Positions 1,836-51,265 of a stretch of 64,000 nucleotides of DNA are shown here, one piece after another. Below the pieces are notes generated by a model. That model was not told the origin of the DNA. It ran no database searches and saw only the letters and a program-made list of their open reading frames with translations. The position numbers and the translations under genes are program-made. Each line of letters starts with the position of its first letter. Position 1 is the first letter of the stretch. The stretch covers positions 78,086,862 to 78,150,861 of the forward strand of contig NC_080584.1 of the NCBI RefSeq assembly GCF_029962835.1, written 5' to 3'. The stretch is from Magnolia sinica. Its lineage: Eukaryota > Streptophyta > Magnoliopsida > Magnoliales > Magnoliaceae.

Positions 1836-2190
1836 AAATTGATGGAGCAGACCCGGATGTGCGTTGGAGCTATTCGGATGTTGAGCGGGGGTCCCTGGAA
1901 GGTGGGAACCGCTGTTATGACCATGATAAAGATATTTATTTCCTATGGACAGCATTGGAGTGGCCTGGCCATTTGGACAAGCCGTGTTTATGTATTTACT
2001 CAAAATTGATGGAGCAGACCCGGATGTGCATCGAAGCTATCCGGATGTTGAGAGAGAGTCCTTTGAAGGTCAGAACCGCTGTTATAACCATGATAAAGTT
2101 GTTCATTTTCTATGGACAACATTGGAGTGGCCTGGCCATTTGGATAAGCCGTGTTTATATATTAGCTCGAAATTGTTGGAGCAGACCCTA
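1836..2190 (+). repeat. Tandem 167-bp repeats (about 2.1 copies)
   Basis: GATGGAGCAGACCCGGATGT starts at 1841 and 2008, and a diverged copy begins at 2175, a constant period of 167. The same unit occurs three times in opposite orientation at 50750-51265, also at period 167. Each unit holds a long open frame (DVERGSLEGGNRCYDHD, LEWPGHLDKPCL). Because 167 is not a multiple of three, consecutive copies switch frame. I do not recognise the peptide. It may be an amplified exon or simply GC-richer repeat DNA. Confidence 0.9.
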
Positions 2191-2193
2191 GTA

Positions 2194-4979
2194 TAACCCT
2201 AAACCTAGCTAAACCTACACCTAAAACTAATACCTAAAACTAAACACCATGGTGGGGACAATGCCCTTGACCATTAATTCCTTCCTGGGACCCACCATGG
2301 TGGTTATTTGATATCCAACTTGTTAGTAAGTTCACACAAACCTAGACCTGAAGAAGGAATAACACAAATATCAGCTTGATCGAAAACTTTTGTGGCCCCA
2401 ATTCATTCCAAGGTCTACTTGAGCTTTGGATCTACCCCAAAACCTAAACCTAAACCTATTCTCAAATCTCAAAACCTATAACCTATAACCTAAACCTAAA
2501 CCTTAACCTAAACCTAAACCTATAACCTTAACCTATAACCTAAACCTTAACCTATAACGTATAACCTATAACCTAAGCCTATAACCTATAACCTAAACTC
2601 AATTCCCTAAACCTTAACCTATAAATTAACCTAAACCTAAACCTATAACCTACACTTATAACCTAAACCTAAACCTATAACCTAAACCTATAACCTAAGA
2701 CTAAACTTAAAACCTAAACCTAAACCTAAAACCTAAATGTATTCTCAAATCCCTAAACCTAAACCTACACCTAATTCTAATCTCAACTCCCCAACCTAAA
2801 TCTAAACCTAAACTTGAAAACCCAAACCTAAACCTGATCCTGAACCCAAACCCGATTTCCTAAACCTAAACCTATTATCAATTCCTTAAAGCTATAACCT
2901 ATAACCAATAACCTATAAATTAAACCTTAACCTTAACCTAAACCTATAACCTAAACCTAAACCTTAACCTAAACCTAAACTTATAACCTTAACCTAAACC
3001 AAAACCTATAACCTAAACCTTAATCTATAACCTATAACCTATAACCTAAACTTATAACCAATAACCTAACCTTAACCTAAACCTAAAACCTAAACCTAAA
3101 CCTATAACATAAACTGATAACCTATAACCTAAACCTAAACCTAAAACCTAAATGTATTCTCAAATCCTTAAACCTAAACCTACACATAATCCTAATCCTA
3201 ATTTCAACTCCCTAACCTAAACCTAAACCTAAACTTGAAAACCCAAACCTAAACCTGATCCCGAACCCGAACCCGATTTCCTAAACCTAAACATTAACGT
3301 ATTCTCAATTCCCTAAAGCTATAACCTATAACCTATAACCTAAACCTAAACCTAACCTTAACCTAAACCTAAACTTAAAACCTAAATGTATTCTCAAATC
3401 CTTAAACCTAAACCTACACCTAATCCTAATCTCAACTCCTTAACCTAAACCTAAACTTGAAAACCCAAACCTAAACCTAAGCCCGATTTCATAAACCTAA
3501 ACCTTAACCTATTCTCAATTCCCTAAAGCTATAACCTATAATCTATAACCTAAACCTAAACCTATAACCTTAACCTAAACCTAAAACCTAAATGTATTCT
3601 CAAATCCCTAAACCTAAACCTACACTTAATCCTAATCTCAACTCCTTAACCTAAACCTAAACTTGAAAACCCAAACCTAAACCCGAACCCGATTTCCTAA
3701 ACCTAAACCTTAACCTATTCTCAATTCCCTAAACCTTAACCTATAACCTAACCTAAACCTAAACATATAACCTACACTTATAACCTAAACCTAAACCTAT
3801 AACCTAAACATGTAACCTTAACCTAAACGTAAAACCTAAACCTAAACCTAAAACTTAAATATATTCTCAAATCCCTAAACCTAAATCTATAACCTACAAC
3901 ATTAACATAAACTTATAACCTAAACCTATAACCTACAACGTTAACCTAAACCTATACTTGTAACCTAAATCTATTCTCAAATCCCAAAACCTATAACCTA
4001 AACCTAAACCTTAACCTATAACCTAAACCTTAACCTATAACCTATAACCTAAACTTAATTCCCTAAACCTTAACCTATAACATAACCTAAACATAAACCT
4101 AAAACTTACACTTATAACCTAAACCTAAACCTGGAACCTTAACTTAAACGTATAATCTAAACCTAAACCTAAAACATAAATGTATTCTCAAATTCCTAAA
4201 CCTAAACCTATAACCTACAACATTAACATAAACTTATAACCTACAACATTAACCTAAACCTATACTTATAACTACAGCTATTCTCAAATCTCAAAACCTA
4301 TAACCTAAACCTAAACCTAAACCTAAACCTATAACTTAAACCTTAACCTATAACGTATAACCTATACCCTATAACCTAAACTCAATTCTCTAAACCTTAA
4401 CCTATAACCTAACCAAAACCTAAACCTATAACCTACACTTATAACCTAAACCTAAACTTATAACCTAAACCTAAACCTATAACCTAAACCTAAACATAAA
4501 TCCTAAATGTATTCTCGAATCCCTAAACCTAAACCTATACCTAATCTTAATCTCAACTCTCTAACCTAAACTTGAAAACCCGATCCCAAACCCGAACCCG
4601 ATTTCCTAAACCTAAACCTTAACCTCTTCTCAATTCCCTAAAGCTATAACCTATAACTTATAACCTATAACCTAAACCTAAACCTTAATCTAAACCTATA
4701 ACCTAAACTTAAACCTTAACCTAAACTTATATAACCTTAACCTAAACCAAAACCTATAACTTAAACTTTAACCTATAACCTATAACCTAAACTTATAACC
4801 TATAACCTAACCTTAACCTAAACCTAAAACTTAAACCTAAACCTATAACCTAAAGCCTAAACCTAAACCTATAACCTAAATGTATTCTCAAATCCTAAAC
4901 TTAAACCTACACCTAATCCTAATCTCAACTCCCTAACATAAACCTAAACTTAAACTTGAAAACCCAAACTTAAACCCGA
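2194..4979 (+). repeat. Telomere-like satellite array (CCTAAA/CCTATAA variants)
   Basis: About 2.8 kb of CCTAAA, CCTATAA and CCTTAA units. A higher-order pattern recurs: TGTATTCTCAAATCCCTAAA, then ACACCTAATCCTAATCTCAA, then TTGAAAACCCAAACC, then CCCGAACCCGATTTCC. The units are six to seven bases, mostly CCTAAA, not the exact plant telomere CCCTAAA. The array is internal, with ordinary sequence on both sides, so it is a satellite inside a transposon and not a chromosome end. The array at 45427-50745 carries the same higher-order markers on the opposite strand. Confidence 0.95.
2228..2420. repeat. MITE-A-like fragment inside the satellite
   Basis: This insert interrupts the array and holds GGGACCCACCATGGTGGTTA, TTGATATCCAACTTGTTAG and AAAACTTTTGTGGCCCC, which are hallmarks of the dispersed MITE family seen at 33505-33999 and elsewhere. 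The array resumes after it. Confidence 0.6.
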
Positions 4980-5720
4980 TTGATGTAATAATGTAACCCA
5001 ATCACATGGCAACAAACAAGAAAATCTTCCTTTGTTGGCAAGCATACTCGAACTCAAGCATCACAATGCATCTATTTCCATCTCCACTATCTCTTATAGC
5101 ATATATTATTTGAGATTTGGATTTATCTCATTTTTAGAGTCATGTCCTAACACAATATGATAATATTAATAGGCAATGTGGATTTGTCACCAACATTATT
5201 TCAAGACCCATATAATTTCTCCTTATAGAAAGTTGGGTAGGGCACATGCAACTTGAATCCATCAAAGGAGATAAGGATCACCTCTCATATATTCTCTCTT
5301 TCTATTTGTTTTTTTCAATAGGATTGTTTATTTTGTGGTGTCTGCTCACGTGCAGCATTTTATCATATTAATATAATTATAAGTGGCCTAATCTCACCTT
5401 TCTAAAAACAACTAATAATAATTTCTACCTGATGAGAAATCACCAAGTACCATTAGGCTCAACCAAAAGATAAATCAGCATTTTCTTTCTTTCCTTTTCT
5501 TTTAAGACACACTCACACACCAGACTCGCTTACGACCACAATGAGTACTTGAAATCGTGATCTTGTATTGAAACTATTTTGAATCTACCATGAAGGCATG
5601 AGTAAGGACCTAGGTGTGTGTACATAGTCAGCGATGTGCTCACCACACTGAATTTTGTAAGCCCCACCAAGAAATAGGCTATGAATAATTTTTTATATTT
5701 TATTTATGATGTTAAACTTA
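4980..5720. other. Spacer between satellite and subterminal region
   Basis: AT-rich single-copy-looking sequence with a polypyrimidine stretch near 5480-5510. No gene, RNA or repeat was recognised. Confidence 0.4.
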
Positions 5721-5905
5721 TATGTATTTATGCGTGGATGAATGTGATGTGGATAAGATTGTTTATTTTTGGATGGATTTACGTAATTTGGGTTTAGATG
5801 GATGTGAATGTGAATATGATGAAATATATTATATAACAAGTGTATATCAGGAAGAATATGATGAAATATATTATAACAGGTGTATATCAGGAATTTTGTG
5901 TTAGA
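5721..5905. repeat. Inner spacer shared by both satellite-bearing CACTA elements
   Basis: GGATTTACGTAATTTGGGTT, GATGGATGTGAATGTGAATA and two copies of GTGTATATCAGGAA...GATGAAATATATTATA occur here. Their reverse complements occur at 44930-45060 (TATACACCTGTTACATCATC, TCACATTCACATCCATCTAA, ACTACGTAAATCC). The small open frame over it has no recognisable product. Confidence 0.75.
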
Positions 5906-5911
5906 ATATTG

Positions 5912-6410
5912 AAAAAAAAAAAAAGACTTTTACCTACGAAATATTTTGTAGGTAAAAGTCTCATCCACGATACGAAAATTTTCGTAGGCAAAAGTTTTGT
6001 AAATATTTTTACCTACGAAAATTTTCATAGGTAAAAGTAGAAAAAAATCAATGAAAGTTTTGTAATTATTTTTACCTACGAAAATTTTCGTAGGTAAAAG
6101 TATCGTGAAATATTTTTACCTACGAAACAAATCGTCAGTAAAAGTTTTTTACCTACGAAAAAATCCGTCGGTAAAAGTTTTGTAAATATTTTTACCTACT
6201 GAAAAAATCATCGGTAAAAGTTTTTTACTTATTTTTTACCGACAAAAAAATTCGTCGGTAAAAATCTTGCCATTGCCGACGATTTAAATTTTCGTCAGTA
6301 AAAGCCTTTTCCGTCGGTCTTTTACTGACAAATTTTTTCGTCGATAAAACCTTTTACGTATGAAAAAATCTCATTTAACAACGAAAATTTTCGTCGATAA
6401 AAGTGGGTTT
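5912..6410. repeat. CACTA subterminal palindromes, ACCTACGAAAATTTTCGTAGGT type
   Basis: About ten copies of the motif TTTTACCTACGAAA facing TTTCGTAGGTAAAAG, with drift toward CCGTCGGTAAAAG near the terminus. Inverted pairs packed within 500 bases of a CACTA terminus are typical transposase-binding subterminal repeats. Confidence 0.85.
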
Positions 6411-6420
6411 TCTTGTAGTG

Positions 6421-7417
6421 ATCCTGGTCTTCTGCTCAGTTAAAGCAGTGAGTCCATTGGTAGTCGCCCAGGATTGAGAATTTGGTCAAGCTGCGAATGC
6501 TTCACAGGTTCATGGTTACGTAATTCCATAGTCCGATTATTCTAGACATTTGGGGAATTTCAAAATTTATTAGGAAGTTCAAGTTTTACATCGATAGGGT
6601 TGTCTTTCGGGTCTTGCCTAAAGAGAGTTCTCATTTTAATTCATGTCCAACTCATCTATTGTTTATAATATCTTTATCACTTTTAGTTACTTAATTATAT
6701 ATTATTTTTATTTGTTATTAAGTTGACTTTTATTTCACAAAATTTTATTTCATTTGAAGTTCCATAAAAAATTATAAAAATTTCGGAAGTACCGATTGTC
6801 CAAAACCAATGATTTTCAGTATGATTCCAAATGTCTCTATTCCTTGTAACATTTTTATATTTTTAGTCTCCGAAATATTTTAAAAATTTTTATGGTGGTT
6901 TATCATTAAGTTTAAAGTCATTCCACAAAATTTCAATTCATTTGGAATTATAGAAAAAACATTAAAATTCTAGAAGTACTATCTAAAACTAATGATTTTT
7001 GGATAGTTGACAAAACATCCTAAAATTAACTATATTTTAATTTTAATTTATTTTTATATGAAACTAAACTTATTAAGTTTCAATCTAGCTTTTGAATCAC
7101 CCCAATCGGAGTTATATTGAGGGAGATGATTTTTTGAAGTCAAATAAAAAGCAGAAAATTGCAGAAATTCCGGCGGGGTCACGCCGTTTTGGGGGGGGGG
7201 GGGGAGGATCGCGCTGATTCTGCGGTGACCCCGCCACCTGCTGGGCTTAGGGATGCCAGTTTGTGGTGAGCCTAAGTTTTTTATTTCGACTCCCGACTCT
7301 ACACTTCCCCTTCTCTTGCAATCCGACTTCAATTTGCCTGTTCGATGGTCTAAGTGGGCTAGAAAATTTTCCAATTAGGAGTGAAGATGATCCGGACCGT
7401 CAGAATTTGAAAGAGAC
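6421..7417. other. Spacer between two CACTA elements, no gene seen
   Basis: AT-rich sequence containing diverged duplicated phrases (AAAATTTTATTTCATTTGAA near 6739 and AAAATTTCAATTCATTTGGA near 6928). A run of 14 G at 7191-7204 is a likely length-unstable or mis-called site. The open frame on the minus strand at 7054-7374 shows no family features. Confidence 0.4.
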
Positions 7418-7544
7418 CACTACCAAAAAATCGAGTAAAGGCTACGGACTTTGGAATTTTTGGCTACATATATAAACTGTAGCAAATTTGCTACAAATTT
7501 AATCCGTATTTAAAACCTACATCCTCATCAGGATCTTATTAGAG

Positions 7545-7850
7545 ATTGTAAGTGCTTAAGGTGGTCCATGGGGCCCATTGGAATATATGTGTTTTATCTA
7601 AGCCACCCATCAATTCTGATATATAATTTCAGTAGATGAGCCCAAAAAGTAGGTAGATTGAAGGTCTAAGTGGACCACACCATAAGAAATAATAAAAAAT
7701 AAATTTCTATCATTAATATTTTATGTGGTCTGCTTACAGCTTCGATCTGATTCCTTTTTTGTATCAACCCTTAAAATAATCAATTAAAATGAATGCACGG
7801 AGTGGATGAATAACATACATCATGGTGGGTCCCACAAGACCTAAAAGTAA
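7545..7850. mobile_element. MITE-like repeat, GTGGGTCCCAC family
   Basis: The left part reads GGTGGTCCATGGGGCCCATT and the right part reads ACATACATCATGGTGGGTCC. The inner part has the usual AGTGGACCACACCATAAG phrase. The two ends are inverted relative to each other, as in the other family members of this window, but exact ends are blurred. Confidence 0.55.
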
Positions 7851-7855
7851 GCAAA

Positions 7856-8148
7856 GTGTCGTCCGTCACCCCCCCGAAACCCAATCCTGCGTGCACCATC
7901 TATAAAAAAAAAAATCCCTCTCTCTCTCTCGCGCACCCATCTCCCAAAACCCAATCCCGCGTGCACCCATCTCTCCAAACTCAAAGCCTCTCCCTTTCCC
8001 TCGCCCTCTCTCTATCTTCCACACTCCCTCACCCTCTCTCTCTCCCCCTCTCGCACTCAGCCTCTCCCTTTCCCTTGCCCTCTCACGATCTCCCGCGTTC
8101 CCTCACCCTCTCTTTGTCTCTTGGCCCCATTCCCCTCTCTATTTCCCA

Positions 8149-8188
<40 letters not shown>

Positions 8189-8345
8189 AGTTTTCAAAAC
8201 CCTCTTTCGTCCCAAACCCACCATTGATTGGTGAGCAGACCCTGTGCCAAGGTTTTCGAAACCCCTTTCATCCAACCCTCGTCACCGTCTTAGCTCATCC
8301 ACCGGCGAGAGAGAGAGACTTGGAGAGCACTTGAAAGAATGAGAA
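7856..8345 (+). promoter_or_regulatory. CT-rich leader-like region with (CT)n microsatellite
   Basis: A long pyrimidine-rich tract with tandem phrases CCCAATCCCGCGTGCACCC and TCTCCCTTTCCCTCGCCCTC, then a (CT)n run at about 8152-8187, then a purine-rich stretch with ATGAGAAGAAG at 8339. This resembles the 5-prime untranslated region of a plant gene captured together with its first exon. The serine/leucine-rich open frame over it is low complexity and is not called as a gene. Confidence 0.35.
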
Positions 8346-11300
8346 GAAGAAGAATGAAGAAGGTCCGAATATCATTTGCCTCTATACATTCGCTATTTAT
8401 TTCCTCATACATTTGCCTCTATAATTGTAGAACTTTTTGCCTGACAGTTGTATTCATGCATGTTATTCGACATAATAATTTCTTTGGATATAATTTTTAG
8501 GGTGTTGAACTAGCTTTTTTTCTTCTTCTTTTTTTTTTTCCTTTTTGGTGTTGAACTAGCCGCTCAGGAAGGAAGAAGTGCAACCACTTCAGCTACTTAT
8601 AGAACATTGGCATAGGAGCTCACTGAACAGCGGTTTCCTACTCCCTGTATCCTGGCGTTCAAAGTTTGTTTTCCTCTAATGTTTCCTTTAAAAAATTACC
8701 AATGGCCTCACTTGCAAAAACTGAAAAATCCATTGTATATAATCTCCTATATGCCATGCATGCTAACTGTTTGATGAAATGTCTCAACAAGGAATGTTTT
8801 GTGTAGATTGCATTTGAGTATCATTTTTTTTTTCTCTACCCAAAAGTCGACCCACATGGCTGTATGGTTGGATGACCTACATTGAAACTTGATGCTGCAG
8901 GACATGCCTCAACAATTGAAAGTGAGGCTTCTAAAAGAGGTGGGAGAGCACGATAGAGAACGGATTGTCTATAAGCACGATATTTTCATGCCTTAGATTG
9001 TGTCATGAGTTTCTTAGGTTTGAAACTATTGATATGTTGTTTTTTATTTGACTTCTTTGTTGATATGTGTGGACGTGATCTTTTATACTTTATTTTTGAG
9101 TTTACGACTTCTTGGCTATTTATATGATGTTTTTGTTTATATGAATGAATATTCCTTAGACACTATTTATTGATTTTATAATGTGTTAGAAACTAGGAAG
9201 TATTCCTTATGGTTATTTCATTTGATTATACTAACTTAAATTTGATATGAATGCCAATGAGTTAATTTCCGTTCATTAATAAGTGCTCCAAATGTACTCT
9301 TAGAGTTTCCTATATACCTTCACATCTTTGCAATTCAATTTAATAAGTTCTCCACTATCCCTTCATGTTTTCTTTGGATTGCAAAAGAAAATTATTAGAT
9401 ATGCTAGTGTTTTTATTTTTGAATTCTGTTTTTCATTTGATTTATTTGGATGGAATTTCAAGGCTTTATAGTAATCAACTAAAATTTTATTTTCTCTTGT
9501 TTGAGGCCTGTTTGGATGCACCCTGTAATGAGAATGATGTTGGAACTTGGGTGTTTGTTTTGGATGTTGGGTTTGATTTAGTTCAGAGGGGAGTAGTGCA
9601 TTACTAGTTAGAAAATTATGCTCCATAACCATGGATGTCAAGGAACTCTTACTGAAGCTCAATTCTGTCAAAGAGTCGTTGAATCAGGCTAATTCTAATA
9701 CAAATTCATCCATTGAAATGGCCGCATTGAGCTCATAAAGATGAAAGACATTGAGGTGAGTTTGTCTGAAAGAGAACCGTTTGTAGAGAAACATTTTTCA
9801 AGTCTTTTCATATATATAAAAAAAAAAAGTCATAAAAATTTCCCAAACCTCCCCTTGTCTTTTTTTTTCCTCTCTAAATACTTTATTGGAAAATAGAAAA
9901 TTTCACTCTCTCCTTTATTTTCCAAGATCCCAAACTGGCCTTTAATTTCTTTCTTCTATTAGTATTGTACAGTTATTATATATATAGAATGGTTTGATGG
10001 ATGCTTTGATTGGTAGTTTGAACAATAGATGGCTTGGTGCATAACTTTTGCTTCACTGCCTTAATTAGCTTTTACTTCAATTTCCTATAATATTTGCAAG
10101 GTTATGGAATATCAATTGATTCATTTGAATGGTCTAGACTCATAAATATGCATTATTCATTTGAATGATTTGAATTATGATTGGAATGAATACTCATAAC
10201 CAAAACTCGAACTGAGGCTTGAAAACTCAGTTGTTGGCCTTGAAAACTCAGTCCAAGTCTAGCCCTCAGACATCTAGGGTCAACCAAAACTCAAACTGAG
10301 GCTTACCCCTTTTGGCTCTAGCTAGTAGACCAAAGCCGGCTCAATGGAAAAATTGCTTTTCATGCCTCCTCTAAGTGCCTATTGGTTCACTTTCTTTGAT
10401 GGGCTGTTTATTTTACCTCGACAATAGTTGCATTTAGCCGTAATAATAGCAATTTTACATTATTTGATTCAGCCCCTAATTTTTTCTTGTTCCAGACGAA
10501 TACTTCCACTAAGCAGTTTAATGATTTGAGATCCTTCTACCTGAAGATCATTTCATTCAGAAATTGCAGACGTTACTATTAAAGAAGGTGGTAGCCATGA
10601 GGCTCTGTTTTGGAATTATTTCCTCCTTATAAATCAGCTTTGTATCATAACAATATAAGATACCCAAACTTGTTTATTAATTATAGCTGCCCAGACCATT
10701 TGAAATGTGGGTCCCGTTGTGGATGGAGCATATATCTAAAATCATGTTGATCAAGCAACCCTAACCATCCAATTAAAGGCTATCAAGCAGATAGTTAACA
10801 GTAAATTAATGAGTCATATAAATTCAAAGGGAAATGTGTGGTTAATATTATCTTCTTAGTGCAATTTTTCAGTTATGCTCCCTTCATAGTTCAGCGATTT
10901 GGATGGATTGGATTGCCAGGCAACTACCCTGTGTGTATGTTCAGAGAGTCACCACCTTAAAAATAAAAAAGAAGAAGAAGAAGAAGAAAAGAAAAAGAAG
11001 AAGTGGGGCAAATCTAATAAGCAATCAGCTATCTTGCCTTTGTGTGTTTATGCATATATTTGGGTGTGACTCCTTTTTCTGTCGAAACAATGATGACCCA
11101 ATAGCAGTTTTCCGGATCTAAGACATGTCCTATTGGTCTCAAAGAAAGGGTGCCTGCTCTTTTATGATCCATATTATGACTAAAGGTCCATTTGGATGTT
11201 TCTGCCTCTTTCAGCAGATGAGCTGTCTTCCCCCAAATTTTAGTATTTCACCTAGATAGCTTCAAAATCTAAATTATCTGGATGTTGATTTGGGGGTAGA

Positions 11301-11688
11301 AAAGAGACTTCCTTAGCTGGCTTATTTAAATCACTCCTTCACTAGACATGCTTCCAATGGAATGTTTGTCCAAATCACAACAGGCATAAGACACAATGGT
11401 GATTAACATCCAAAAGGTACCTTATGTGTCCAAGAAAGTATTCAATTAAGTATGGTTGGTCTTATAGATATCCTATAAATTCTCCCCTTTTGTTTGATTG
11501 GTATGCGGCGGTTGCATATGACTCCAAGGGCACATCTGCTCTTCATCCACGTAGCTCTAATTCTATGAGCAACATCCTTCTCAATCTATCCTCTCTCATG
11601 AATTAACAACCTAAGATATATGTTTTGTGCCTTTACACTACATACTTGTAATCTTGTAATCTTGTAATCTTGCAATCTTGTCTTGTAG
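8346..11688. other. Interior of CACTA element 2, no identifiable gene
   Basis: AT-rich DNA with short exon-like patches at about 8556-8640 and 8901-8990, where TGCAG precedes an open stretch. I could not assign these to a family. Poly-T and poly-A runs and a (GAA)n tract near 10970-11000 are present. Confidence 0.3.
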
Positions 11689-11804
11689 GCCATATTGAAC
11701 TGACGCCTTTAATTCTACAATCTGTCATAGATCATCTGGTTCAATGGCACCTAATTCTAGATAGTAGGAAACCAAACAGTTGTATTATCAGCTTCTTTAA
11801 TGAG
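11689..11804 (+). pseudogene. ALKBH9/10-like RNA demethylase, captured exon A
   Basis: A 116-bp exon lies between TTGTAG and GTAAGT. It encodes IELTPLILQSVIDHLVQW followed by RKPNSCIISFFNE. This matches the segment before the catalytic core of plant ALKBH9/ALKBH10 proteins, 2-oxoglutarate/Fe(II) dioxygenases that remove m6A from RNA. The family normally has several upstream exons, including one with an FNKQMKGN-type sequence, and none of these is visible here. The fragment continues in the correct phase into the exon at 12042. It is a transduplicated fragment inside CACTA element 2 and not a working gene. Confidence 0.65.
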
Positions 11805-12041
11805 GTAAGTCTTAATCCTCTCTTTTTTCTTTTTTGCTTTTTTTCTTCTTCTTCTTTTTTTTTTAAGGGATGAAGAGTTGGGTAATTCCTACTGTTTATG
11901 TCTCTTTTTCTTGTTTATCTTTTTGAGAAGGATGGTCAGCCATAAATGATGTTGCCCCATTTGTTCTAATTTTCAAATCTTTGTTTTAACTATCGATTTT
12001 CCTGAAAGGACTGAAGTTTTGATGTTACAATTGTTTTGCAG

Positions 12042-12196
12042 GGGGAATACTCGCAACCATATTTGAAACCACTGCATTTAGACCACCCTATTTCTACACT
12101 TCTTCTTTCAAAATCTACAATGGCTTCCAATCGCATTCTTTCTGGTGATCATGATGGAAATTACAAAGGCCCGCTCATGCTTACTCTGAAGGCAGG
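12042..12196 (+). pseudogene. ALKBH9/10-like RNA demethylase, captured exon B (iron-binding HxD)
   Basis: A 155-bp exon lies between TTTTGCAG and GTACGT. It reads GEYSQPYLKPLHLDHPISTL, then NYKGPLMLTLKAG. H-L-D supplies the histidine and aspartate of the HxD iron-binding motif of 2-oxoglutarate dioxygenases, and the KGPL-L-LK strand follows as in ALKBH9/10. The next expected exon, with the second histidine and the 2-oxoglutarate-binding arginine (LLVMRGNSAD-type and RVSITFF-type), is absent: at 12747 an unrelated gene fragment begins. The catalytic domain is therefore incomplete. Confidence 0.7.
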
Positions 12197-12746
12197 GTAC
12201 GTATACCATTGGAGCATTTTATCATATCACTTTCCTTTTGCCCTCCTTTGTTGTTTGAAATTTGTGAAGGTTCTATTAGGTAGACTATTGCAAAAGCACG
12301 TCATAGAGGAAAGTTTAGTCCAAATATATTGAGTTTAACAGAACCATTGAGAAAATTAACATCTTCCCTTGATGCTAGTGGATATTAACAACAGTAAAAT
12401 GCCACTTTCAACTACCCATGTGACATTACTGTTCAAATTCGGCCTCCTTTACATTTAAAAAGGAAGTAAGATTAGACATACCCATCTTCTAAACTAGAAA
12501 ATTTTCCCCAGTTCCTGAGATTTGAGGCTCTCTTAAATATAAATTGTTGTTAATGGGTTCTTTCTTGCTATCAGTTTTGTTGGTCTGTAAGGTGAGTCGA
12601 ACTCATCGATCAATGTTGAAACCCATCAGTCACAATCGAGTATCACTTTCCCTATCATTTAACATATGAAGGTGTGTTCTTTCAAACTATATTATGTTCA
12701 ATATCTTTAAATTGTTTTGGATGATGGACAAAAAACAAAATGTCAG
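12197..12746. other. Intron-like spacer between two captured gene pieces
   Basis: AT-rich sequence with no recognised element. The junction between the ALKBH-derived and receptor-kinase-derived DNA must lie somewhere in here. Confidence 0.4.
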
Positions 12747-12942
12747 GGTGAGAAAGTACTACAAGATTTTAACATCCAAGATGAAGCCAAGGGCTCCAAA
12801 AGAGCTATCATAAAAATGTTCATGGCAAATGTGACAGACATAACCATGGAGATCTACTTCTTTTGGGCTGAAAAAGGGACTTGCTGCATTCCACTTCAAG
12901 CAACTTTCGGGCCACTAGTGTCAGCCATACATGTTTCTCTAG
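12747..12942 (+). pseudogene. Malectin-domain LRR receptor kinase, captured exon (malectin C-terminus)
   Basis: A 196-bp exon begins after TGTCAG and ends before GTTCTC. It encodes GEKVLQDFNIQDEAKGSKRA and, after an NVTDITMEIYFFWAEKGT segment, FGPLVSAIHVSL. This is the last part of the extracellular malectin-like domain of plant LRR-VIII-2 receptor kinases, where a KVL-DFNI-EA phrase and a GPL-SAI phrase are typical. No leucine-rich repeats precede it and no kinase follows. If spliced directly to the ALKBH exon at 12196 the frame would shift, so no chimeric protein is evident. Confidence 0.7.
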
Positions 12943-13028
12943 GTTCTCAACCATCCTATTTCTATGTTTTCCTTGCATTTAATTTTCATCCTTCTTTAAT
13001 TGACTGATTCTTTGTTTTTATGTTGCAG

Positions 13029-13180
13029 AGTCCTCTAGTGGTGGTTTGCCCATGAATAATTATAGAAGATACACAGGAGAAGTTATCGGTATAGCTGTCG
13101 GATGTGCAGGTGGACTACTGATACTCACATCCATTTTCTATCTATGGTGGATAAAGGATGCACCTAGCCATATGCGAGTG
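13029..13180 (+). pseudogene. Malectin-domain LRR receptor kinase, captured exon (transmembrane)
   Basis: After the acceptor TGTTGCAG the frame reads SSGGLPMNNYRRYTGEVIGI, then AVGCAGGLLILTSIFYLWW, a hydrophobic membrane helix followed by a charged stop-transfer residue. This is the juxtamembrane and membrane exon that follows the malectin domain in LRR-VIII-2 kinases, so two consecutive exons of one gene were captured with their intron. The right border is uncertain and no kinase exon follows. Confidence 0.6.
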
Positions 13181-13204
13181 CACACAGACTCACCAAGATT
13201 TGTA

Positions 13205-13345
13205 TTTTCAACATTATTGTAATTGTGTAATTGTAATTGAATGAATGAAGGATTGTAATTGATTCATCATTAATGAATGAATGATTGTAATTGAATGAAT
13301 GAATGATTATGCAGGTGGTAATTGAATGAATGAATGATTATAATT
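13205..13345. repeat. (ATTG/AATG)n degenerate simple repeat
   Basis: Several copies of GTAATTGAATGAATGAATGA with small variations. It is non-coding. Confidence 0.75.
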
Positions 13346-13394
13346 TTTTTAAAATGTAGGCAATAGCTATGAATATTGACCATAACTAGTAATC

Positions 13395-13670
13395 TGACAA
13401 CCGTAGCTGTTATTAAATTCGGCATATTGCTACGGATCCAGCACTACTTTTAGCTACAAATACTATCCGTAGCTATAGGTACTTTTGGTTAAAGAAACAG
13501 TTGCTATGGATTATATCTGTAGCTATTGTAATCTATGGCTATGGATTAAACTGTAGCCATAGGTTTTAGACCTATTGCTACGGCACCTATGACTACGGTC
13601 ATGCTACGGACTAAAACCGTAGCCATAGGTCTTTAGCTACAGCTTTTATCCATAGCCTTTGCCCAGTTTT
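13395..13670. repeat. CACTA subterminal repeats, CTACGG/CCGTAGC type
   Basis: Dense inverted copies of GCTACGG and CCGTAGCCATAGGT occupy the last 280 bases of CACTA element 2. Their arrangement is like that of the subterminal arrays of the other two elements. Confidence 0.75.
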
Positions 13671-13679
13671 CTGGTAGTG

Positions 13680-18822: not shown

Positions 18823-28065
<9,243 letters not shown>

Positions 28066-28122
28066 GCTTGCAACAATAGCCGTTAATTCAGGAGAATTGT
28101 TTTTTTAGAATGAGAAGTGCAG

Positions 28123-28814: not shown

Positions 28815-28843
28815 ACCTTGATGAAGAATATTTAAAATATTGC

Positions 28844-34643: not shown

Positions 34644-34679
<36 letters not shown>

Positions 34680-40360: not shown

Positions 40361-40687
40361 TGGCTTTGATGTTTATTTGATTGGATATCCACCATTAAAA
40401 TCCTCTTAAGGTCCATTGTACTGTTTATTTGACATCCAATATGTTGATTAGATCATTAAGACCCAGATGAAGGGAAAAAGTTTTTAATGGTCGACGTTCA
40501 TTCAACACTATTTCCTGTAATGTGGTCCACTTGAGATTGGGATATCCTTATTTTTGGTATCACACCATAAAATGATCTAGAAAAATAGATGGACAGCATG
40601 GATGAATCACATATATCATGGTGTGGCCCACTGAGCACCGACCACCAGCCATTGGCTGGTGGCAGGTGGAGTCGCCAATCCGTTTCC
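40361..40687. mobile_element. MITE-A copy, left-truncated
   Basis: The inner phrase GATTGGATATCCACCATTAA leads to the right terminus GAGCACCGACCACCAGCCAT, GGCTGGTGGCAGGTGGAGTC and CCAATCCGTTTCC. The first 150 or so bases present in other copies are missing. Confidence 0.65.
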
Positions 40688-42132: not shown

Positions 42133-42968
42133 TAAAACTTATGTAGTGGTCCACATAAAATCATGCCTAAAATGGCCTACCTGATTTCTGGAATGGCATG
42201 GCTTTTTGGGCTTTTCGGGGTGTCCATTCATCCTGGTGAGGTGCATTTTGATAAAAGAATTGGATGGCATATACAGAACACTCTGGGCCCCACCTTATCT
42301 GGAAGGTTTAAATGGTGGGCATATACGAAGCACTCTGGACCCCACCTTATCTTGAAGGTTTTAATGGTGGGCGTCCACATTCCAATTGTTTCATGTGATG
42401 TGAGCCACCCGTTTCTTGGATGCACTTGAGAGTTTTGTTCTTGGATGAGAAGCTTGAAGGGGCGCACCTGATGGGGGAAGTGGACATGGCCCTAAATGAC
42501 AGTGGATATGAGGGCCAGGCAGGGTTGGCCATAGCCCTGCCCTATCCTATATACTCTGGCCCTAGCCCACCCCTGACCATCCACACCGTTTCCGTGGTGT
42601 GGCCTAGTTGAGTTTACCATCTTCATTTTTGGCTTGTCTTCTAAAATGACTAGGAACAAATGGATGGAGTGGATATGACATAGATATGATGGTGGGTCCT
42701 ACAGAGCTTAGGTTTTTAGGGGATTTTTGTTTTTCTGAGCTACAAGATTTTGCTATACTAGAATCTGCCTATTCATCCACCATAATGTGAGAAGCATGCT
42801 CGTCCAGAAGAAGAATAGTAAGAAGAAGAGTATGAAGAAAAAACAGATCTAACACTCACCTCGTTGGGATTGTGCCGCTCTGGTTCGTTGGGCGAGATCA
42901 GGTGCGGGCAGCGTTTGGGTAGTCGTAGCCCGTAGGTGGTGGTTGTTCGGTGGATTGATGTTGCTCGT

Positions 42969-43016
42969 TGGGGGGGGGGGTGGGGTGGGGTGGGGTGGGG
43001 TGGGGTGGGGTGGGGT
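42969..43016. repeat. (GGGGT)n tract
   Basis: An 11-G run is followed by six to seven GGGGT pentamers; potential quadruplex-forming DNA. The length is likely unstable. Confidence 0.85.
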
Positions 43017-43076
43017 AGAGAAAGAGAAGAAAGGGAAAGGGCGAGGGGGCTGGGGTTGGGTGGAGGTGAAATTTTT

Positions 43077-43155
<79 letters not shown>
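43077..43155. repeat. (TA)n microsatellite
   Basis: About 75 bases of pure TA dinucleotide. Confidence 0.95.
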
Positions 43156-43160
<5 letters not shown>

Positions 43161-43385
43161 TAAATTATAAAATCTTATTTTTAATCGAGCTCGAGCTCGA
43201 GTTCAAGTTTGGAGTCGAGTCGAGTTAAAATGGCCCATGGTCAAACTCGGGTCGAATGCACCACGAGCTATAAGATTTAAGCTTCACTCGGCCTGACTCG
43301 GCCATTCAAGCCGAGTCAATCCGAGCTGACTCAAGCTGAGTCGAGCATGTTATTCGAGCTAGCTCGACCCATGAACAGCCCTAAA

Positions 43386-44385
43386 TTTGATTGATGGATG
43401 AATAAACTAATTTACACTCCTTTTTACTAAAGTATTGAAGATTTATATTCAAAACTAAATCTTTTTATAAATGGTAAAGACCAAATTGAAATATAAATTT
43501 GATTATTAATCTGATGGTATTTTCTAAATTCTGCGTGGGCAACTGACATAGTGGGGTTGGGTGGTTAAAATAGTTGTCATACCCAAAATTACATATGACA
43601 CATGGGATAACTTATTCCAACGTGTGAGATACATCCGTTTTAGGTTCTGACCGTCCATATTACCTCCATCTCTAATTATGCTTTTTATAATTCAACTTTG
43701 GCCATGAAATTATCCGCTTCCCACTCTACGTCAAAACATCAACAATTCAAAAACCAAGATATTATGATTAAGGTCTGGGCCTACAACCCGTCTAAAGTGG
43801 GGCTCACCATTGGTAATGTTGGATTTGAGGTATAAGTGACAGTGTTTAATGTCTTCCGTGCATGAGTACATAGCACTGCCAGATTACCAAATAACTCGCA
43901 AATCTAAACCGTCAATTCTTCCGGTTTTAGTTTGGGCAAGTGGTGTCTAAGGTGGGTCCCATTACATGGCTATATACAGGCTTTGTTTCAACAGTGAGAA
44001 TAACCATGTGTAAAAATAAAATAAAATAGTGTCTTAGGTAGTATTCTTCTAAACCAGTAATCTGGTGGGCCACTGGAATGTTTATATGCCATCGAACCTG
44101 TTGATACGGTCAAAAAGACCTGCATGTAAGGACCATAGAAATATAGCTTGGTTCAAAACTTTTGCAACCCTCGGGGAGTTTTTTTTTATAAAATCAATCT
44201 CCACTCTTTCAAATGGTGTGGTCTACCTAAGATTTCGATCTAATGTGCTTTTTTTTTTTCGATAGATTTCTAAAAGGTTCTGTAAAAACGAATGAACGAC
44301 TTGGATTTAATTAATACAAATTAATCAAAGCGGGTCCTACATTCAGGGATTGACTGACATCAGAAGGTCCGTGGATCCCCCGTCT
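43386..44385. other. Stretch without a gene
   Basis: AT-rich. 43790-44335 has degenerate MITE-like phrases (GTGGGGCTCACC near 43797, GGTGGGTCCC near 43951, GGTGGGCCACTGGAATG near 44062). Nothing coding. Confidence 0.35.
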
Positions 44386-44507
44386 GGAAGCGGATTGGCT
44401 GGTGTACCACACACTAGCCGATATAGGTACGTGTCGTGCGAAGACCTGCGCTGACGCCCCTCCAGCTCCGAGTTGTACGAACGGTTCAAATGAGGTCAAA
44501 GTTACGT
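44386..44507. mobile_element. MITE-B copy 2, left part (split by CACTA element 3)
   Basis: Starts GGAAGCGGATTGGCTGGTGT and runs through CTCCGAGTTGTACGAACGGT to GTTACGT, where the CACTA begins. It resumes after 59632 with CGTGGCCCCACAGTGATG and ends near 60091. The unbroken family member at 60251 reads AAGTTACATGGGCCCCACAA at this place, which shows the empty site. Confidence 0.8.
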
Positions 44508-44519
44508 CACTACGCCAAA

Positions 44520-44920
44520 ACTGTGAAAAAAGGACGGTCCAAAACCGTCTCAAATGACGAAAAAGGACGGTCATGGACCGTCGCAAGGGCCGTCAAATTT
44601 TGACGTGTCGTATTACTTAAAGGACGGTTGAAAACCATCATTTTTATTGACGAAAAAAGGACGGTCATGGACCGTCCCAAAAAAGGACGGTCGTGAACCG
44701 TCCTTAAAAAGGACGGTCTCGGACAGTCTCTTATGAGCCTTCAAAGGACGGCCACAGACCGTCCTTTAAAAGGACAGTCATGGACCGTCCTTAAAAAGGA
44801 CTGTCATGGTCCGTCTCTTATGGGCCTTCAAAGGACGGCCACAGACCGTCCTTTAAAAGGATGGTCATGGACCGTCCTTAAAAAGGACTGTCATGGACCG
44901 TCCCCTATAAGAGGGTCAAT
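44520..44920. repeat. Left subterminal palindromes, GGACGGTCATGGACCGTCC type
   Basis: More than ten GGACGGTC/GACCGTCC pairs. An 87-base unit beginning CCTTCAAAGGACGGCCACAG is tandemly repeated from 44738 and 44825. The palindromes differ from those at the right end by one base (GGACGGTC against AGACGGTC). Confidence 0.85.
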
Positions 44921-44924
44921 ATAC

Positions 44925-45260
44925 ACATGTTACATCATCATATTCTTCCTGATATACACCTGTTACATCATCATATTTTTCCTAATATACACCTGTTATA
45001 TAATATATTTCATCATATTCACATTCACATCCATCTAAACCTAAACTACGTAAATCCAGCATAAACTACATTCATCCAAACATAAACTACATCCATCTAA
45101 ACCCAAATTACGTAAATCCAAACATAAACTACACACTCATCTAAACCCAAACTACGTAAATCCAACATAAACTACATTCATCCAAACATAAACTACATCC
45201 ATCCAAACACAAGCAATCTTATCCACATTACATTCATCCACACATAAATACATATAAGTT
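44925..45260. repeat. Inner spacer with tandem ACTACGTAAATCC units
   Basis: TATACACCTGTTACATCATC repeats come first, then several units of CATAAACTACATCCATC and AAACCCAAACTACGTAAATC. The region is the reverse complement of 5721-5905. Confidence 0.75.
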
Positions 45261-45426
45261 TAACATCATAAATTAAAAAAGAAAAAAAATCAGCAACAAT
45301 TTTCTTATTGTCTTTCACCTGAAAAAAAAAATTTAAACCAACAAAACATTATAATTCAGAATCATGAAGAATTGCATAAACTTCTTCTAAAAAAGTGAGC
45401 ACTTATTAAAAATAAAACTGATCATT

Positions 45427-48400
45427 AAAATAGGTTTAGGTTTAGGTTTTAGGTTTTAGGTGTTAGGTTTTAGGTTTAGGTTTAGGATAAGGTTTTAGGT
45501 CATAGGTTATAAGTTTAGGTTATAGGTTATAGGTTAAGGTTTAGGTTATAGGTTTTGGTTTAGGCTTAGATTATAGATTTAGGTTAAGATTTAGGTTTTA
45601 GTTATAGGTTATAGTATATAGGTTATAGCTTTAGGAAATTGAGAATAGGTTAAGGTTAAGGTTTAGGTTTAGGAAATCGGGTCCGAGTTCGGGATCGGGT
45701 TTAGGTTTGGGTTATCAAGTTTAGGTTTAAGTTTAGGTTAGGGAGTTGAGATTAGGATTAGGTGTAGGTTTAGGTTCAAGGATTTAAAAATACATTTTGA
45801 TTTTAGGTTTTAGGCTTATGTTTAGGTTATAGGTTTAGGTTATAAGTGCAGTTAATAGGTTTAGATTTATGTTAGGTTATAGGTTAAGGTTTGGTTTAGG
45901 AAATTGGGTTCGGGTTCGGGATCAGGTTGAGGTTTGGATTAGGGAGTTGAGATTAGGATTAGGTGTAGGTTTAGGTTTAGGGATTTGGGAATACATTTAG
46001 GTTTAGGTTAAGGTTTAGGTTTAGGTTTAGGTTTAGCTTATAAGCAATAGATTTTAGGTTTAGGTTTAAGTTATAGGTTACAGGTTTAGGTATAGCTTTA
46101 GGCTTAGGTTTAGGTTACAAGATAAAGGTTTAGGGAATTGAGAATAGGTTAAGGTTTAGGTTTAGGAAATCGGGTTCGGGTTCAAGATCGGGTTTAGGTT
46201 TGGGTTTTCAAGTTTAGGTTTAGGTTTAGGTTAGGGAGTTGAGATTAGGATTAGGTGTAGGTTTAGGTTTAAGGATTCGAGAATACATTTAGGTTTTATA
46301 TTTAGGTTTAGGTTTAGGTTTAGGTTATAAGCTATAGGTTTAGGAAATTGAGAATAGGTTAAGGTTTAGGTTTAGGAAATCGGGTTCGGGTTCGGGATCG
46401 GGTTTAGGTTTTGGTTTTCAAGTTTAGGTTTAGGTTTAGGTTAGGGAGTTGAGATTAGGATTAGGTGTAGGTTTAAGTTTAGGGATTTGAGAATACATTA
46501 AGGTTTAGGTTTAGGAAATCGGGTTCGGGTTCGGGATCAGGTTTAGGTTTGAGTTTTTGAGTTTAGGTTTACGTTTAGGTTAGAGAGTTGAGATTAGGAT
46601 TAGGTGTAGGTTTAGGTTTAGAGATTTGAGAATACATTTAGGTTTTAGGTTTATGTTTAGGTTATAGGTTATAGATTTAGGTTTAGGTATAGGTTTAGGT
46701 TTCGGTTTAGGTTATAAGTAATGGGTTTAAGGAATTGAGAATAGGTTAAGATTTAGGTTTAGGAAATCCAGTTCGGGTTCGGGACCAGGTTTAGGTTTGA
46801 ATTTTCAAGTTTAGGTTTAGGTTTAGGTTAGGAAGTTGAGATTAGGATTAGGTATAGGTTTAGGTTTAGGGATTTGAGAATATAGGTTTAGGTTATAGGT
46901 TACATGTTTAGGTTAAGGCTATAGGTTATAGGTTTAGGTTAAGGTTTAGGTTTCGGTTTAAGAATTTGAGAATACATTTAGGTTTTAGGTTTAGGTTTAG
47001 GTTATAGGTTACAGGTTTAGGTCTAGGTTTAGGTTTATGCTATAGGTTATAGGTTTAGGTTAAGGTTTAGGTTTAGGAAATCGGGTTCGGGTTCGGGATC
47101 AGGTTTAGGTTTTAGTTTTCAAGTTTAGGTTTAGGTTTAGGTTAGGGAGTTGAGATTAGGATTAGGTGTAGGTTTAAGTTTAGGGATTTGAGAATACATT
47201 TAGGTTTTAGGTTTATATTTAGGTTATAGGTTACAGGTTTAGGTTAAGGCTATAGGTTATAGGTTTAGGTTAAGGTTTAGGTTTAGGTTTAAGTTTAGGT
47301 TATAAGCTATAGGTTTAGGGAATTGAGAATAGGTTACGGTTTAGGTTTAGGAAATCAGGTTCGGGTTCGGGATCAGGTTTAGGTTTTGGTTTTCAAGTTT
47401 AGGTTTAGGTTTAGATTAGGGAGTTGAGATTAGGACTAGGTGTAGGTTTAGGTTTAGGTATTTGAGAATACATTTAGATTTTAGTTTTATATTTAGGTTA
47501 TAGGTTACAGGTTTAGGTTAAGGCTATAGGTTATAGGTTTAGGTTAAGGTCTAAGGATTTGAGAATACATTTAGGTTTTGGGTTTAGGTTTAGGTTATAG
47601 GTTACAGGTTTATGTTTATGCTATAGGTTATAGGTTTAGGTTAAGGTTTAGGTTTAATTTTAGGTTTTAAGCTATAGGTTTAGAGAATTGAGAATAGGTT
47701 AAGGTTTAGGTTTAGGAAATCGGGTTGGGGTTCGGGATCGGGTTTAGGTTTGAGTTTTCAAGTTTAGGTTTAGGTTTAGGTTAGGGAGTTGAGATTAGGA
47801 TTAGGTGTAGGTTTAGGTTTAGGGATTTGAGAATACATTTAGGTTTTAGGTTTTTATTTAGGTTATAGGTTACAGGTTTAGGTTAAGGCTATAGGTTATA
47901 GGTTTAGGTTAAGGTTTAGATTAAGGTTTAGATTTAGGTTTAAGGATTTGAGAATACATTTAAGTTTTGGGTTTAGGTTTAGATTATAGGTTACAGGTTT
48001 AGGTTTAACTGTATGTTTATGCTATAGGTTATAGGTTTAGGTTAAGGTTTAGGTTTAAGTTTAGGTTATAAGCTATAGGTTTAGGGAATTGAGAATAGGT
48101 TAAAGTTTAAGTTTAGGAAATCGGGTTCGGGTTCGGGATCGGTTTTAGGTTTGAGTTTTCAAGTTTAGGTTTAGGTTTAGGTTAGGGAGTTGAGATTAGG
48201 ATTAGGTATAGGTTTAGGTTTAGGGATTTGAGAATACATTTAGGTTTTAGGTTTAGGTTTAGGTTATAGGTTACATATTTAGGTTAAGGCTATAGGTTAT
48301 AGGTTTAGGTTAAGGTTAAGGTTTAGGTTAAGGTTTGGGTTTAGGTTTAAGGATTTGAGAATACATTTAGGTTTTAGGTTTAGGTTTAGGTTATAGGTTA

Positions 48401-50745
48401 CAGGTTAGAGGTTTAGGTTTAGGTTTAGGTTTATGCTATAGGTTATAGCTTTAGGTTAAGGTTTAGGTTAAGTTTTAGGTTTAGGTTTAAGCTATAGGTT
48501 TAGAGAATTGAAAATAGGTTAAGGTTTAGGTTTAGCAAATCGGGTTCGGGTTCGGGATCGGGTTTAGGTTTGAGTTTTCAAGCTTAGGTTTAGGTTTAGG
48601 TTAGGGAGTCGATATTAGGATTAGGTGTAGGTTTAGGTTTAGGGATTTGAGAATACATTTAGGTTTAGGTTATGTTTGGGTTATAGGTTATAGGTTTAGG
48701 TTAAGGTATAAGTTTAGCTTTCGGTTTAGGTTATAAGCGATTGGTTTAGGGAATTGAGAATAGGTTAAGGTTTAGGTTTAGGAAATCGGGTTCGGGTTCG
48801 GGATCGGGTTTAGGTTAGGGAGTTGAGATTAGGATTAGGTGTAGGTTTAGTTTTAGGGATTTGAGAATACATCTAGGTTATAGGTTATAGGTTTAGGTTT
48901 AGGTTTAGGTTAAGGTATAAGTTTTGGTTTCGGTTTAGGTTATAAGCAATAGGTTTAGGGAATTGAGAATAGGTTAAGGTTTAGGTTTAGGAAATCGGGT
49001 TTGGGTTCAGGATCGGGTTTAGGTTTGGGTTATCAAGTTTAGGTTTAGGTTTAGGTTAGGGAGTTTAGATTAGGATTAGGTGTAGGTTTAGGTTTAGGGA
49101 TTAGGTTTAAGTTTAGGTTAGGGAGTTTAGATTAGGATTAGGTGTAGGTTTAGGTTTAGGGTGTAGGTTTAGGTTTAGGGATTTGAGAATACATTAGGTT
49201 TTAGGTTTAGGTTAAGGTTATAGGTTATAGGTTTAGGTTTAGGTTTAGGTTTGGTTTTAGTTTTGATTTAGGTTATAGGTTATAGGTTTAGGTTAAGGTT
49301 TAGGGAAAGGTAATAGGTTTTAATTTAGGTTATAGGTTATAGGTTTAGGTTTTAGGTTTAGGTTTAGGTTTTGATTTATGTTATAAGTTATAGGTTTAGT
49401 TTAAGGTTTAGGTTTAGGTTATAGGTTTTGGGATTTAAGAATGGGTTTGGGTTTAGGTTATAGTTTTGGTTATAGGTTATAGGTTTAGGTTAAGGTTTAT
49501 GTTTAGGTTATAGGTTTTGGGATTTGAGAATGGGTTCGGGTTTAGGTTATAGGTTTTTGTTTTGGTTTAGGTTATAGGTTTTGGGATTTGAGGATGGGTT
49601 CGGGTTTAGGTTATAAGTTTTGGTTTTGGTTTAGGTTTAGGTTATAGGTTTTTGGATTTGAGAATGGGTTATGCTTTAGGTTTAGGAAATCGGGTTTAAG
49701 TTCGGGATTGGGTTTAAGTTTGAGTTTTCAAGTTTATGTTTAGGTTTAGGTTAGGGAGTTGAGATTAGGATTAGGTGTAGGTTTAGCTTTAGGGAATTGA
49801 GTTTAGCTTATAGGTTTAGGGAAAGCTTAGGTTTAGGTTTTGGGATTTGAGAATAGTTTTAGGTTATAAGTATAGGTTTAGGTTAGGTTATAAGTTAAGG
49901 TTTATGGATTTGAGTTTAGGTAATAGGATTAGGTTTAGGTTTAGGTTTAGGGATTTGAGTTTAGGTTATAGGTTTAGGTTTAGGTTTTAGGTTTAGGTTT
50001 AGGTTTATGTTTGGGTTTTGGGATTTGGTTTTGATTATATGTTTTAATTTAGGTTATAGATTTTAGGTTTAGGTTTTAGGTTTTGGTTTTAGGTTTAGGT
50101 TTGATTTAGGTTATAGGTTTTGATTTAGGTTATAGGTTAATGGTTTAGGTTATAGGTTTTTGGATTTGAGAATGGGTTCAGGTATAGGCTATAGGTTTTG
50201 GCTTTGGTTTAGGTTATAGGTTTTGGTTTAGTTTATAGGTTATAGGTTTAGGTTTAGGTTTAGATTATGGGTTATAAGATTTGAGAATGCGTTCGGGTTT
50301 AGGATATAGGTTTTGGTTTTGGTTATATGTTTTGATTTAGGTTTAGGTTATAGGTTAGGTTTTAGGTTAAGGTTATAGGTTTAGGTTAAGGTTTAGGTTT
50401 AGGTTTAGGTTAAGGTTATAGGTATAGGTTAAGGTTTAGGTTTAGGTTTAGGTTTAGATTATAAGATATAGGTTTAGGGAATTGAGAATAGGTTAAGGTT
50501 AAGGTTTAGGTTCGGGTTCGGGATTGGGTTTATGTTTGGGTTTTCAAATTTAGGTATAGGTTTAGGTTATGGAGTTAAGATTAGGATTAAGTGTAGGTTT
50601 AGGTTTAGGGATTTGAGAATACATTTAGATTTTAGGCTTAGGTTTAAGTTTTAGGTTTTAGGTTAAGGTTTAGGTTTAGGTTAAGGTTGAGGTTTAGGTT
50701 ATAAGTTAAGGTTTTAGGTCATAGGTTTTGGTTTAGGTTAAGGGT
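45427..50745 (-). repeat. Telomere-like satellite array (TTTAGG/TATAGG variants), 5.3 kb
   Basis: TTTAGG, TTATAGG and TTAAGG units are arranged in a higher-order repeat of a few hundred bases. Markers recurring in fixed order are GGAATTGAGAATAGGTTAAG, GGAAATCGGGTTCGGGTTCG, TTTTCAAGTTTAGG, GGGAGTTGAGATTAGGATTA and GATTTGAGAATACATTTAGG. The block around the GAAATCGGGTTCGGG marker repeats more than ten times. Marker order and sequence equal those of 2194-4979 on the opposite strand. It is not a canonical TTTAGGG telomere and contains no genes. Confidence 0.95.
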
Positions 50746-50749
50746 ATGG

Positions 50750-51265
50750 TCCCTACAAATACAGATATAAACACGGCCATCCGACCAAATGGCCAGGCCC
50801 TTCCAATGCTGTCCATAAAAAATGGACAGCTTCATCATAGTCATAATAGCGGTTCCCTCTTTCCAGGGAACCCCGCTCTTCCGAATAGCTCTGACGCACA
50901 TCCGGGTCTGCTCCATTAATTTCAATCAAATACATAAACACGGCATGTTCAAATGGCCAGGCCCCTCTAATGCTGTCCATAGGAAATGGACAGCTTCATC
51001 ATGGTTATAACAGCGGTTCCCACCTTCCAGGGACCCCTGCTCAACATCCGGATAGCTCCGACGCACATCCGGGTCTGCTCTATCAATTTCGAGTTAATAC
51101 ATAAACATGGCTTGTCCAAATGGTCAGGCCACTCCAATGTTGTCCATAGGAAATGGACAGCTTCATCATGGTCATAACAGCGGTTCCCACCTTCCAAGGA
51201 CCCCCGCTCAACATCCGAATAGCTCCGACGCACATCCGGGTCTGCTCCATCAATTTCGATCTAAT
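50750..51265 (-). repeat. Three tandem 167-bp repeats
   Basis: CTGCTC(C/T)AT begins at 50908, 51075 and 51242, a period of 167. The units are the reverse complement of those at 1836-2190. The first copy is the most diverged and borders the satellite. Confidence 0.9.

Follow-up and report, generated by a model that had tools for sequence, protein, structure and literature searches.

A common satellite-bearing block between CACTA ends of different type in Magnolia sinica

Two elements in a 64,000-nucleotide stretch of the Magnolia sinica genome (the window; contig NC_080584.1), here called E1 and E2, carry one collinear, co-oriented block of about 4–6 kb (E1 5912–1808, E2 44916–51284), and the subterminal motifs of their end modules are exclusive to one or the other element at up to one mismatch. 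From the terminus inward, the block consists of an AT-rich spacer, a degenerate TTTAGG array, a 167-bp tandem array and an outer flank. The preliminary description of this DNA had left a choice between a swap of ends and two captures of the same satellite. The homologous block with different ends is confirmed, and a replacement of ends, which we infer from this arrangement, is favoured, though unproven, over two captures. The features of both elements are listed by window position.

1–1807: E1 side beyond the shared block; the far end of E1 lies outside the window
1808–2188, minus strand: E1 167-bp tandem units (about 2.1) and common outer flank TTTAAAAACAACATAA
2436–4980, minus strand: E1 degenerate TTTAGG-like array with higher-order markers GAAATCGGG and TTGAGAATA
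4981–5688: stretch present only in E1, unlike E2 45291–45430, with short matches only, to dispersed-repeat DNA elsewhere in E2
5689–5912, minus strand: E1 spacer copy (TGTATATCAGGAA repeats, ACGTAAATCC)
5913–6420, minus strand: E1 end module, with CACTACAAGAAAACCC terminus and palindromic subterminal repeats of the TTTTACCTACGAAA / TTTTACCGACGAAA type
44505–44507, plus strand: target-site duplication CGT, left
44508–44915, plus strand: E2 left end module, with CACTACGCCAAAACTG terminus and GGACGGTC...GACCGTCC palindromes
44916–45290, plus strand: E2 spacer copy
45431–50745, plus strand: E2 array of degenerate TTTAGG-like repeats, with the marker types seen in E1
50767–51284, plus strand: E2 167-bp tandem units (3) and common outer flank TTTAAAGACAACATAA
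51624–51738, plus strand: second, small TTTAGG-like satellite piece, beyond the 167-bp units in E2
54424–54504, minus strand: captured alpha-tubulin exon 1 (27 residues, four missing relative to tubulin), then GT, inside E2
59015–59632, minus strand: E2 right end module, with CACTACGTGAAAAATGG terminus and AGACGGTC...GACCGTCT palindromes
59633–59635, plus strand: target-site duplication CGT, right

Spanning 15,125 bp (44508–59632), E2 is a complete CACTA insertion, flanked by CGT on both sides and bounded by an imperfect terminal inverted repeat (TIR). The two ends of this repeat, CACTACGCC... and CACTACGTG..., share the start CACTACG and agree at 24 positions of a 30-base alignment, a level reached by none of 500 shuffles. 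When joined, the flanks of E2 gave 19 alignments to the window. Two of these are the flanks themselves; among the remaining 17, three extend well past the junction, to intact dispersed-repeat copies at 28815–28212, 60269–60836 and 61293–60846 (73–77% identity), so that E2 interrupts a dispersed repeat. GACGGTC/GACCGTC palindromes occur in both end modules, and E2 combines the CACTA TIRs, the 3-bp duplication and the inverted subterminal motif at both ends that define the CACTA (En/Spm, DTC) superfamily. Chance mis-pairing of ends, which the preliminary description had named as its own refutation, is ruled out for E2 by the target duplication, the TIR, the common subterminal motif and the empty site. 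The span originally proposed for the pair, 1836–51265, cuts across the elements: E2 reaches 59632 and E1 leaves the window on the left. Just inside the right end module of E2 lies an AT-rich tandem array with a period of about 153 bp (57892–58958).

The interior of E2 carries a fragment of a host gene. This alpha-tubulin fragment is 81 bp long and begins MGECIS, with its start codon present, and the best tubulin chain for it in the PDB is found at E 2e-10; a host gene fragment (alpha-tubulin exon 1) within CACTA ends is what characterizes Pack-CACTA elements. Transposase is needed only for autonomy. Of 92 ORFs that reach 45 aa or more, 30 were scanned with Pfam, and none of these contains a transposase family (tnp2 / Transposase_21); the 92 come from window positions 1–2440, 4980–5930 and 51270–59020, which are parts of E1 and E2, and E2 therefore looks non-autonomous; on the sequence, both elements are apparently so. 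Coding content is likewise absent from the 167-bp unit as far as Pfam cut-offs go, none being reached by the scanned ORFs that lie over it. Below the cut-offs, the 30 ORFs gave tubulin at E 0.21 and IPPT, SRTM1, SEC-C, Fung_rhodopsin and Augurin at E 0.05–0.35; all but tubulin are taken as chance matches. Elsewhere in the window, pieces on the minus strand between the elements (18826–28104) resemble a G-type lectin receptor kinase (B_lectin, S_locus_glycop, DUF3403), a likeness considered without the kinase domain, and an ORF with an EF-hand domain pair lies at 63350–63706. There is also a third CACTA-like end pair (7418–13679), with a third subterminal type, GCTACGG/CCGTAGC, a 31-bp TIR at 81% and unequal flanking triplets (GAC versus GAT).

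Both termini lie where they were first placed, with CACTACAAGAAAA on the minus strand ending at 6420 and CACTACGCCAAAA starting at 44508. For E1, the right end at 6420 is the only one within the window, the other lying beyond its left edge. This visible end has a CACTA terminus with subterminal palindromes (5913–6420), and from it we infer that E1 is a CACTA element; the original claim of two CACTA elements accordingly stands in full for E2 and at this lesser strength for E1, which runs off the left edge. We consider it unlikely that E1 is anything other than one CACTA element with this core, whether through a foreign terminus at 6420 or as an E2-like fragment rearranged after insertion. Such a history would fit the position of the other E1 end and its target duplication outside the window, and the short, weak matches to E2 that are all the left 1.8 kb contains, but the end module has the same orientation in E1 as in E2, and near 5913, where the E1 module ends inwardly, neither a CACTA nor a TAGTG end is visible.

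The sequence beyond the block was compared in several ways. E1 1–1795 aligns with E2 51292–53500 no better than shuffles do, 16 of 60 scoring as high. When E1 1–1807 is compared with all of E2, 26 short matches appear with E values up to 10; the strongest covers 63 bp at 70% (E 8e-5) in dispersed-repeat DNA at window 56459–56521, and another covers 146 bp at 62% (E 2e-4) in an AT-rich stretch near 57.9 kb. A translated comparison gave single matches of at most 29 bits; its printed E-values, which are sums over several matches, were left out of account. The shared part is taken, on these alignments, as a block bounded on both sides, with outer sequence that differs in E1 and E2.

Within these bounds, the inward order given in the preliminary description (palindromic subterminals, spacer, TTTAGG-like array, 167-bp units) holds in both elements, and the common core lies far above chance. 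The spacer alignment scores 183, a value that none of 200 shuffles approaches (highest 49), and comparison of the window with itself by blast matches the two spacers over 120 bp at 89.2% and 118 bp at 85.6%. The same comparison aligns the 167-bp arrays over 381 bp at 89.0% (1808–2188 versus 51284–50904). Near the terminus, the block edge falls at 5912 in E1 and 44916 in E2, and both copies begin TCAATAT. On the far side, the last 167-bp unit is followed in both elements by TTTAAARACAACATAA, ending at 1808 and 51284, and the 16 bp after this unit match at 15 of 16 positions. Past TTTAAARACAACATAA, permissive alignments extend 65–76 bp further at low identity. Inspection of the alignments by eye, which is not a test, revealed nothing recognisable as ends of the block's own at its edges. 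An exact 23-base piece of the 167-bp unit is absent from the viral_contigs and genome_contigs collections, as expected of collections of viruses and prokaryotes.

The satellite arrays of E1 and E2, for which GAAATCGGGTTCGGG serves as a marker, have a TTTAGG unit with TTATAGG and TTAAGG variants. Alignments over 500 bp give about 70–76% identity between the arrays, a figure inflated by low complexity. The higher-order markers recur in both, with GAAATCGGG found 5 times in the E1 array and 10 times in that of E2, TTGAGAATA 13 and 26 times, and GTTGAGATTAGGATTAGGTG 2 and 9 times; described earlier as identical, they prove only similar between the arrays. The term telomere-like is also loose for this unit and its variants. 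TTTAGGG occurs 10 times in the 2,545 bp of the E1 array and 22 times in the 5,315 bp of the E2 array, TTTAGGGTTTAGGG occurs in neither, and a plant telomere tract of tandem TTTAGGG is rejected.

The two cores do not correspond without gaps. About 0.7 kb of E1 (4981–5688) stands where E2 has a dissimilar 140 bp (45291–45430); these two stretches show no likeness, 143 of 200 shuffles scoring as high, and the best match of the E1 stretch anywhere in E2 is 90 bp at 64% (E 1e-5), in dispersed-repeat DNA. Between the satellite array and the 167-bp units, E1 has about 0.25 kb (2189–2435) and E2 about 23 bp. In this part of E1, 2185–2245 is satellite-like and 2304–2397 resembles E2 55524–55612, in dispersed-repeat DNA. 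A small satellite piece lies beyond the 167-bp units of E2 (51624–51738), and the two repeats may once have been interleaved.

The end modules, by comparison, are largely distinct. At up to one mismatch, all 9 matches of TTTTACCTACGAAA and all 11 of TTTTACCGACGAAA in the window fall in the E1 end module, while AAAGGACGGTC has 17 matches, 16 in the E2 left end and one in its right end, and AGAGACGGTC has 20, two in the left end and 18 in the right. At two mismatches this exclusivity blurs, with one TTTTACCGACGAAA-type match in the E2 left end, single GACGGTC-type matches inside E1 and inside E2, and, in the rest of the window, 10 and 19 matches of the two short motifs. Neither E1 nor E2 contains an internal relic of the opposite end type at up to one mismatch, and two mismatches gave isolated single matches in each. 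The 30-base terminus of E1 is no closer to the E2 ends than shuffles that keep CACTA, 26% and 11% of 500 being as good. A single alignment links the modules: the E1 terminus (6388–6412) matches an inner place in the E2 left end (44630–44656) over 27 columns with 23 identities. Its score of 33 exceeds that of 200 shuffles (maximum 30) and of 342 overlapping window segments (maximum 30 for the E1 module and 31 for the E2 module). This match may be a hint, at the sequence level, of remote kinship between the end modules rather than of exchange, and it qualifies the earlier statement that termini and palindromes differ, which otherwise holds for the motifs at up to one mismatch.

Such kinship bears on whether the two elements could descend from one ancestral CACTA element with no exchange at all, the ends having been overwritten by fast turnover as the binding protein changed its specificity. 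Besides the 27-column match, which outscores every control run, this improbable course could appeal to the wide variation of CACTA subterminal repeats, probably in parallel with their binding proteins, described in the covered part of PMC2613891. However, the adjoining spacer is still 86–89% identical, the transition to the end module is sharp, and the sequence past the other edge of the block differs too. The E2 left end is, moreover, far nearer to the E2 right end (best E 1.7e-18) than to the E1 end (best E 0.002); for the right end against E1 the best value is 0.35.

How the arrays descended was addressed with both repeats. Among the 10 pairs of 167-bp units, the closest is formed by the outermost unit of E1 and that of E2 (92.8%); within the elements, the two units of E1 share 86.8% and the two outer ones of E2 91.6%. 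This likeness of the outer units, together with the common outer flank, favours inheritance of a ready-made array. Quartet sites in the 167-bp units are divided, with three grouping by position, two by element and two crossed. For the higher-order units, 24 matches of a loose pattern provided a sample of 19 (5 from E1, 14 from E2), one being left out as too short and four without the marker being dropped after the alignment was inspected. Their tree mixes E1 and E2, with four label changes against a shuffled mean of 4.5–4.6, and one E1 group appears in 0% of 200 bootstrap trees. An AU test nevertheless does not reject the E1 higher-order units as a single group (p 0.113; 0.209 with one E1 unit omitted).

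The AU result is compatible with independent capture, by which the spacer–satellite–167-bp block would be a dispersed genomic repeat taken up by two CACTA families. The sequences on both outer sides of the block differ, which also speaks for it, and capture of satellite DNA by CACTA elements is documented, a quinoa family lying inside or near such elements according to the part of PMC8978399 covered. We nonetheless regard two captures as unlikely. In both elements the block directly adjoins the end module and has one and the same orientation, its edge lying 508 bp from the terminus in E1 and 408 bp in E2. Such agreement is not expected of two random captures, and for this reason end replacement is favoured. 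Within the window, which is a small sample, all 6 places with the 167-bp unit and all 4 with the spacer fall in E1 and E2 (E at most 1e-3).

We give roughly an even chance to a history in which one satellite-bearing block came to be packaged between CACTA ends of different type, perhaps through fusion of neighbouring insertions. The block would first have resided inside one CACTA element and, in one lineage, would later have become enclosed by ends of the other type. The most probable route would be of the Pack-CACTA kind, with GACGGTC-type insertions arising beside a satellite-bearing element; the inner ends would be lost, and transposase would then move all DNA between the surviving outer ends. 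The sections of PMC8903248 and PMC13317346 covered here present this model, with loss of the inner ends of neighbouring insertions and mobilisation of the intervening DNA by the outer ones. Template-switching gap repair, which we suggest ourselves, could yield the same product in another way. To move, each element would rely on a transposase of its own acting in trans, with a DNA-binding partner that would read the subterminal repeats, and the satellite is probably passenger DNA. Since subterminal motifs are thought to be bound by an element protein (PMC2613891, in the part covered), E1 and E2 probably answer to different proteins. Several observations count against end replacement, namely that there are two elements, one of them cut by the window, that the 27-column match links the end modules, and that one E1-type motif occurs in the E2 left end at two mismatches. 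Against the fusion route counts the lack of other-type end relics at up to one mismatch, though fusion could leave relics.

Parts of this arrangement have precedents. Modular ends around a satellite cargo had been called unusual in the preliminary description, a judgement to be narrowed, as satellite capture in CACTA elements and hybrids from neighbouring insertions already appear in the covered portions of PMC8978399, PMC8903248 and PMC13317346. The quinoa CACTA element Jozin is 16.5 kb long and, like E2, has a satellite array near one end, in its case a captured one of 5.55 kb; related elements have captured gene fragments, and for the capture mechanism the source refers to an earlier paper (PMC8978399, in part). 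Unlike E1 and E2, Jozin keeps a transposase domain and has a single satellite family with a 171-bp monomer, and the part of PMC8978399 covered describes no pair with a common core and different ends. The quinoa 171-bp satellite is rejected as a relative of the 167-bp unit, since 105 of 200 shuffles on one strand and 57 of 200 on the other scored as high as the real comparison. Elsewhere in Chenopodium, satellite monomers derive from a CACTA transposase domain (PMC7320549, in part).

Pack-CACTA and other Pack-TYPE elements are non-autonomous TIR elements with host gene fragments (PMC8903248, PMC13317346), as E2 appears to be. In those described in the covered parts of these sources, however, the ends of the family are kept and internal DNA is gained, whereas here a common block is found with different ends and most of the cargo is satellite. 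The soybean genome likewise contains two CACTA subfamilies, Tgmt* and Tgm1, which are distinguished by their subterminal motifs and have a 3-bp duplication and asymmetric stem-loop subterminals. Their motifs differ at 6 positions (PMC2613891, in the part covered), while those of E1 and E2 are wholly different, yet adjoin a block that is 86–89% identical. The portion of the wheat subtelomere paper PMC2756281 that was covered contains nothing on a shared core with different ends. Among the matches listed in our literature search, judged on titles and opening abstracts and with subscription papers mostly outside its scope, there is no report of CACTA elements with a common satellite core and different ends. 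Both the capture of satellites by CACTA elements and the fusion of Pack-CACTA elements are known; what sets the present pair apart is the common block between different ends.

CACTA elements are distinguished mainly by their ends, and it is common to regard satellites as static arrays. A broader view, which we hold only tentatively, is that CACTA families swap their end modules while keeping a shared satellite cargo. The spacer–satellite–167-bp block would then be a cassette mobilised successively by two transposase systems that differ in subterminal recognition, and cores and ends would have separate histories. If cargo does pass between families, trees of CACTA families built from ends and from interiors would disagree, and one satellite could be spread by more than one transposase. 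The pair of E1 and E2 offers a concrete test case for such conflict between end trees and core trees.
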